DNA from: Desulfuromonas sp.
GTDB lineage: Bacteria; Desulfobacterota; Desulfuromonadia; Desulfuromonadales; Geopsychrobacteraceae
Assembly: GCA_002869665.1 (NCBI GenBank)
Contig: PKUG01000110.1
Span: 1-32,631 of the forward strand
DNA: 32,631 nt
Direction of reading: 5' to 3'
Both the position numbers and the translations under genes were made by a program. The notes beneath the pieces are model-generated. The model was not told the DNA's origin, ran no database searches, and saw only the letters and a program-made list of their open reading frames with translations. Below are positions 7,986-8,157 of the stretch, piece by piece. Numbering within the stretch: the first letter of the stretch is position 1; each line of letters opens with the position of its first letter.

Positions 7986-8157
7986 TGGTCCCCTGTCAAT
8001 AAATTTCGCCACCTTCTCGATGCAACGTGTGGGGAAGTTGCCTTTTCTTATTCGCGTCTTTGTTACGCCAAGTACCGATCCGGTACCAAGAGAAGGTTCG
8101 CCATTTGCTTCACGCCGCCTGTGCGGCAAAAAATAGGCTCGCGTCTCCAACTGTGTG
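7986..8157 (-). ncRNA. Candidate seekRNA/bridge-RNA-like guide RNA in the IS 3' non-coding end
   Basis: Closing stem ACCTTCTC/GAGAAGGT (8011-8018 with 8090-8097) encloses hairpins 8022-8041, 8054-8068 and 8072-8086, with a further hairpin at 8114-8127. A 14-nt tract at 8042-8055 matches the reconstructed target site. Confidence 0.68.

Follow-up and report, generated by a model that had tools for sequence, protein, structure and literature searches.

The window (the whole stretch of 32,631 nucleotides of Desulfuromonas sp. DNA analysed here) carries an insertion sequence (IS) of the IS1111 group, and its 3' non-coding RNA is very probably (about 0.93 in our estimate) a bridge RNA with two recognition modules, in which loop 1 reads the target and a multiloop reads the donor. 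The multiloop contains the tract that an earlier note on this DNA had taken for the target guide. The broader proposal of that note, namely that the element is of the IS1111 type, has a structured guide RNA on the 3' side of its transposase and has a target readable from the sequence, is borne out by the family profiles, the consensus fold and the covariation of loop 1 with the sites.

The protein search returned 855 related proteins (identity up to 86%), and contig scans yielded 79 metagenome loci and 80 genome loci, with a few more from a search of the class. Loci were aligned in transposase orientation and about 70 relatives were compared. No transposase relative was found in IMG/VR. The Rfam scan of the window gave no match, and thus this guide RNA is not covered by Rfam.

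The element and its ends

The element comprises the following features.

7977..9313, minus strand: IS1111-type insertion sequence, about 1337 bp; ends from empty-site evidence, with an A-run ambiguity of at most 3 nt
8158..9240, minus strand: DEDD transposase / bridge recombinase, 360 aa, assigned by PF01548 and PF02371, NF033542 and conserved residues
9296..9305: left sub-terminal inverted repeat (sTIR), CAGGGGACCA on the plus strand
7986..7995: right sTIR, TGGTCCCCTG on the plus strand
7977..7985: right terminus of the IS, CATAAGAAA in transposase orientation, conserved after the right sTIR in relatives and absent from empty sites

The transposase scored 214 bits, against a cut-off of 140, with NF033542 ('IS110 family RNA-guided transposase'), and is related to the IS1111 group over its full length, with the G(L)xP....SG motif present. 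Residues D26, E72, D110 and D113 and the G..P....SG motif are invariant in the comparison with relatives. The sTIRs form a perfect 10 bp repeat and lie at the same places in relatives. This is slightly short of the 11-13 bp usual for IS1111 according to Siddiquee et al. (2024, PMC11187229), and falls inside the range of 7-17 bp of Durrant et al. (PMC11208160). Both arms (TGGTCCCCTG) differ jointly from those of the closest relatives (TGGCCATCTG), a matched change at the two ends, 7986-7995 and 9296-9305. From the stop codon to the end of the IS there is a non-coding stretch of about 175-180 nt, versus about 70 nt upstream of the transposase gene. Membership of the element in the IS1111 group of the IS110 family is well supported.

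The published regularity for IS1111, as given in PMC11187229, is an extension of 7 (or 6) bp beyond the left sTIR and 3 bp beyond the right one. This 7/3 rule would place the element at 7983-9312, which was the boundary drawn in the earlier note, and does not agree with the empty sites. In the window's genome there are three IS-free copies of the interrupted repeat (paralogous copies of the repeat, not the same locus), two reading GGGAGCAAAAAATGGCC and one diverged, and all lack TAAGAAA; so do two IS-free repeat copies in a relative, genome G009, which read GGAAGCAAAAAATGGCC. In the genome of locus L097 all seven IS-free copies read GAAAGAAAACGAACC and the occupied copy reads GAAAGAAAT-IS-AAGAAAACGAACC; the genome of L099 has one more IS-free copy reading GAAAGAAAACGAACC, and its occupied copy ends with GGAAGAAAT in place of AAGAAAACGAACC. 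At an orthologous terminator in Geomonas that has no IS the sequence is AATAAAAAGGCGGCC, and the occupied one reads AATAAAAAT-IS-AAGAAAGGCGGCC. The net insertion exceeds an element drawn by the 7/3 rule by exactly 7 nt at the L097, L099 and Geomonas sites, and by 6 or 7 nt in the window. A TAAAGAAAA run in one Geomonas ortholog (L201) counts against the explanation preferred here. A target-site duplication of AAGAAA was also considered and is ruled out, as AAGAAA stands on the right even where the left flank is without it.

Joining 7982 to 9313, as had been proposed, was therefore not confirmed as restoring the pre-insertion sequence: both the relatives' sites and the paralogous copies of the window's repeat differ from the junction so reconstructed. 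The element is 6-7 nt longer than had been drawn and includes AAGAA(A); it runs TACCATGC ... CATAAGAA(A), with an A core shared with the target. Its terminal extensions, judged from the empty sites, are about 8 nt on the left (TACCATGC) and about 9 nt on the right (CATAAGAAA), within the A-run ambiguity. Since membership in the group rests on the sTIRs, the non-coding region and the transposase, the mismatch with 7/3 limits the rule for this clade and not the assignment to the group.

The sequence after the right sTIR is CATAAGAAA (CAT|AAGAAA) at nearly every usable locus, with insertion sites that differ; what varies from locus to locus is the left flank and, on the right, whatever follows AAGAAA. 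It could be argued that the 7/3 boundary is right and that AAGAAA, which starts the right flanks at nearly all sites, is a fixed half of the target required by all members and read by the tract, loop 1 reading the variable half. Such an arrangement would keep the 7 bp and 3 bp extensions of the published IS1111 rule (PMC11187229), but we regard it as very improbable: the IS-free repeats and the orthologous empty terminator lack AAGAAA there, or have one AAGAAA and not two, and loop 1 already accounts for the target on either side.

The longer ends and the boundary of the earlier note lead to different predictions. The exact empty allele of 7977-9313 would read GGGAGCAAA(A)AGTGGCC with the long ends, whereas the shorter boundary predicts GGGAGCAAATAAGAAAAGTGGCC. 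Similarly, the circular form would join as CATAAGAA(A)TACCATGC, as opposed to the junction CATACCATGC predicted from the short ends. If AAGAA(A) belongs to the IS, 62 of 68 loci would have TTGAC(A)-16/17 nt-TACCAT at the circle junction, a plausible promoter spacing. The predicted junction was also looked for in viral contigs, where the 58 matches to a 15-mer, none of them with sTIRs or a -35 box around, were taken as chance.

The IS interrupts an intergenic repeat (window positions 7900-7976 and 9314-9384; contigs C202 and C57 of genome G000) that is found in several copies in the same genome and in at least two in G009. The repeat copy adjoining the IS has at 7949-7958 the same CAGGGGACCA as the sTIR, and IS-free copies read CAGCGAACCA or CTACGAACCA there; the sTIR-like sequence may be due either to chance or to conversion.

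Loop 1 and the target sites

The RNA is described by the following features, all on the minus strand.

8011..8143: guide (bridge/seek) RNA core, a 5' target-binding loop followed by a 3' multiloop with the probable donor-side guide, from the consensus and single-sequence folds
8128..8139: 5' side of the target guide in loop 1 (AGCCTATTTTTT), complementary to the right flank
8114..8127: hairpin GCCGC-ACAG-GCGGC separating the two sides of the target guide; the pairs at columns 22-35 and 24-33 change on both sides
8103..8113: 3' side of the target guide in loop 1 (RNA GUGAAGCAAAU), in left-flank sense, pairing with the bottom strand of that flank
8070..8076: RNA GGUACUU, a candidate for the second half of the donor guide by its complementarity to ..TACC at the left end of the IS
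8041..8055: the tract (RNA GCGAAUAAGAAAAGG), a probable donor-side guide that matches CATAAGAAA, the right end of the element itself; near-invariant, without target covariation, changing together with the IS end

The 37 sequences aligned share a fold made up of loop 1, with its outer stem and hairpin, together with a closing stem and two further hairpins, GGTACC and GGCG; nine of the pairs show changes on both sides. Covariation speaks neither for nor against the outer stem, which is the same in all of these sequences. The sTIRs, the two hairpins and the closing stem pointed out previously are all present at their places, and the hairpins and the stem (ACCTTCTC/GAGAAGGT, 8090-8097/8011-8018) are predicted to fold. 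The single-sequence fold of the window is only mildly more stable than shuffles (z -1.47).

Loop 1 is an internal loop around a short hairpin, at 8139-8103, upstream of the tract. Its 3' side (GTGAAGCAAAT, 8113-8103) copies the left flank: at the five variable positions the own flank matched at 4.44 on average and crossed flanks at 1.66 (z = 16.3, n = 41 deduplicated). The reverse complement of its 5' side matched the right flank beyond AAGAA at 5.82 for own pairs against 2.85 for crossed ones (z = 16.1, n = 38 deduplicated). These statistics include noise from a few divergent loci, such as L046, in which the automatic procedure misplaced the loops. As relatedness could inflate such figures, only close pairs were then compared, with transposases at least 75% identical and guides that differ: own pairing was better in 43, swapped pairing in none, and 4 were tied, although the pairs share loci and these are not 43 independent events. 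The target is thus matched by two RNA segments, one for each strand, on the two sides of the insertion point, a feature by which a bridge RNA or seekRNA is recognised. The target guide is loop 1, and its reading of the target is supported by covariation, even if the window's own match to the right flank is the weakest by strict identity, at 2 (6 with G-U allowed).

That the element has no functional guide, and that the similarities come from T/C-rich low complexity, is scarcely credible. The flanks are indeed rich in A/T runs, and the earlier note had itself asked that coincidence of this kind be excluded, but a permutation keeping composition was exceeded with z of about 16, swapped pairing never won among close pairs, and the RNA fold is conserved.

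Two Geomonas loci from the close-pair comparison, L095 and L177, have transposases 92% identical, different target loops and correspondingly different sites, and are a case of natural re-addressing. Genome G009 holds two copies of one related IS (L012 and L013) in different A-runs, and the guide matches both; the L012 copy has one TAA inside the transposase frame. Among testable insertion sites, 16 of 60 lie in an A-run just before a terminator-like hairpin, against 2% in mononucleotide shuffles, and therefore part of the clade is addressed to intrinsic terminators (such sites include L012, L024, L028, L029, L031, L064, L095, L103, L106, L110 and L177). A wider proposition, to which we would give somewhat less than an even chance, is that change in the target loop far outpaces that in the transposase and the donor guide, with near-identical elements being re-addressed between chromosomal repeats and the A-tracts at the foot of terminators, and with ends longer than the accepted IS1111 definition.

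The conserved tract and the probable donor module

The 14-nt string CTTTTCTTATTCGC is present at 8042-8055 on the plus strand, as had been claimed, and its match to the reconstructed junction is beyond chance: it is the sole match to the junction 14-mer in the window at one mismatch or fewer, with none in 100 shuffles. On this basis 8042-8055 had been read as a target guide that pairs without a break with a single strand spanning the insertion junction, and the agreement is close (13 of 14 identities, 14 of 14 with a wobble). The tract (GAAUAAGAAAAGG) is nevertheless nearly invariant in about 70 relatives whatever the site, with the RNA reading GAATAAGAAAAGG at nearly every usable locus, and it does not track the flanks, its own flank matching at 2.76 of 7 positions and crossed flanks at 2.85 (p = 0.83). 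The covariation between site and guide expected of a target guide is therefore missing from this tract and present on both sides of the upstream loop. Moreover, the matched AAGAAA is missing from the empty sites, and continuous recognition of one strand would be unlike the published IS1111/IS110 guides. We consider it highly unlikely that the tract reads the target.

The tract instead follows the end of the element. Its core and the right end of the IS change together, AGGAAA occurring with AGGAAA (L050 and L111, and by eye L058 and L100), GAGAAA with GAGAAA (L062/L063) and AAGATA with AAGATA (L046). Several further variants of the tract can still pair with AAGAAA through G-U (L024, L041 and L054 are examples), and L177 has an incompatible C. 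Because the tract and the right-hand sequence are near-invariant whatever the site, and the empty sites are without TAAGAAA, AAGAAA belongs to the right end of the element itself, and the tract is very probably a donor-side guide, set in the donor-binding multiloop that ACCTTCTC/GAGAAGGT closes. It resembled the target only because this right end had been counted as flank; with AAGAA(A) included in the element, what the junction-spanning string matches is for the most part the end of the IS itself. The left 6 nt of the 14 (GC.AAT) are partly coincidence, since this stretch of the tract does not follow the left flank in relatives. The segment GGUACUU may be the second half of the donor guide; it is nearly invariant, and so its assignment draws on complementarity to the left end.

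According to this model, the 5' side of loop 1 would pair with the top strand of the target to the right of the A-rich core, and its 3' side with the bottom strand to the left of it. The multiloop with the tract would read the donor, that is, the joined ends of the element (CATAAG-AA(A)-TACCATGC), and the RNA would bring these ends and the target together. By analogy with IS621 and ISEc11, the guide RNA is probably made, binds the transposase and acts as it does in those elements, the DEDD/serine recombinase exchanging strands across the shared A core. The products would be left flank-AAA-TACCATGC (TACC...) ... CATAAG-AAA-right flank.

Comparison with known systems

For re-aiming the element, the part of the RNA to alter would be loop 1 in place of the tract, and a wrong IS boundary is a pitfall that makes a donor guide look exactly like a target guide. 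The clade offers dozens of natural pairs of guide and site with strong two-strand covariation, which can serve as orthologs in programmable recombination and help to define the ends of IS1111 elements. If the longer ends are true, published boundaries, and the target motifs read from them, need rechecking in similar IS.

The mechanism of the IS1111 guide RNA is known; this element is a clear further example of it, and the less usual features are a longer right end and a rich natural re-addressing. With the seekRNA-bearing IS1111 elements ISEc11, ISKpn4 and ISPa11, as described by Siddiquee et al. (2024, PMC11187229), the present element shares the DEDD transposase, the sTIRs and a guide RNA in the 3' non-coding region. 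In those seekRNAs the complement of the top strand lies 5' of the match to the bottom strand, the same order as in loop 1, and natural re-direction and insertion into repeats (ISPa11 in REP) are common to them and to this clade. The differences from that description are the right extension, about 9 nt (CATAAGAAA) here by empty-site evidence and 3 there, and the recognisable donor-side guide, of which no description was found in the available part of that article. The bridge RNA of the IS621 type (Durrant et al. 2024, PMC11208160) has, as is proposed here, a target loop and a donor module, both of which pair with the two strands about a short shared core, and the donor-binding nucleotides of IS1111 bridge RNAs are placed in a multiloop in that work, as is the tract here. 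In contrast to IS621, in which the RNA lies 5' of the transposase, it lies 3' here, the order of the strand matches is reversed, and the core appears to be AA/AAA rather than CT.
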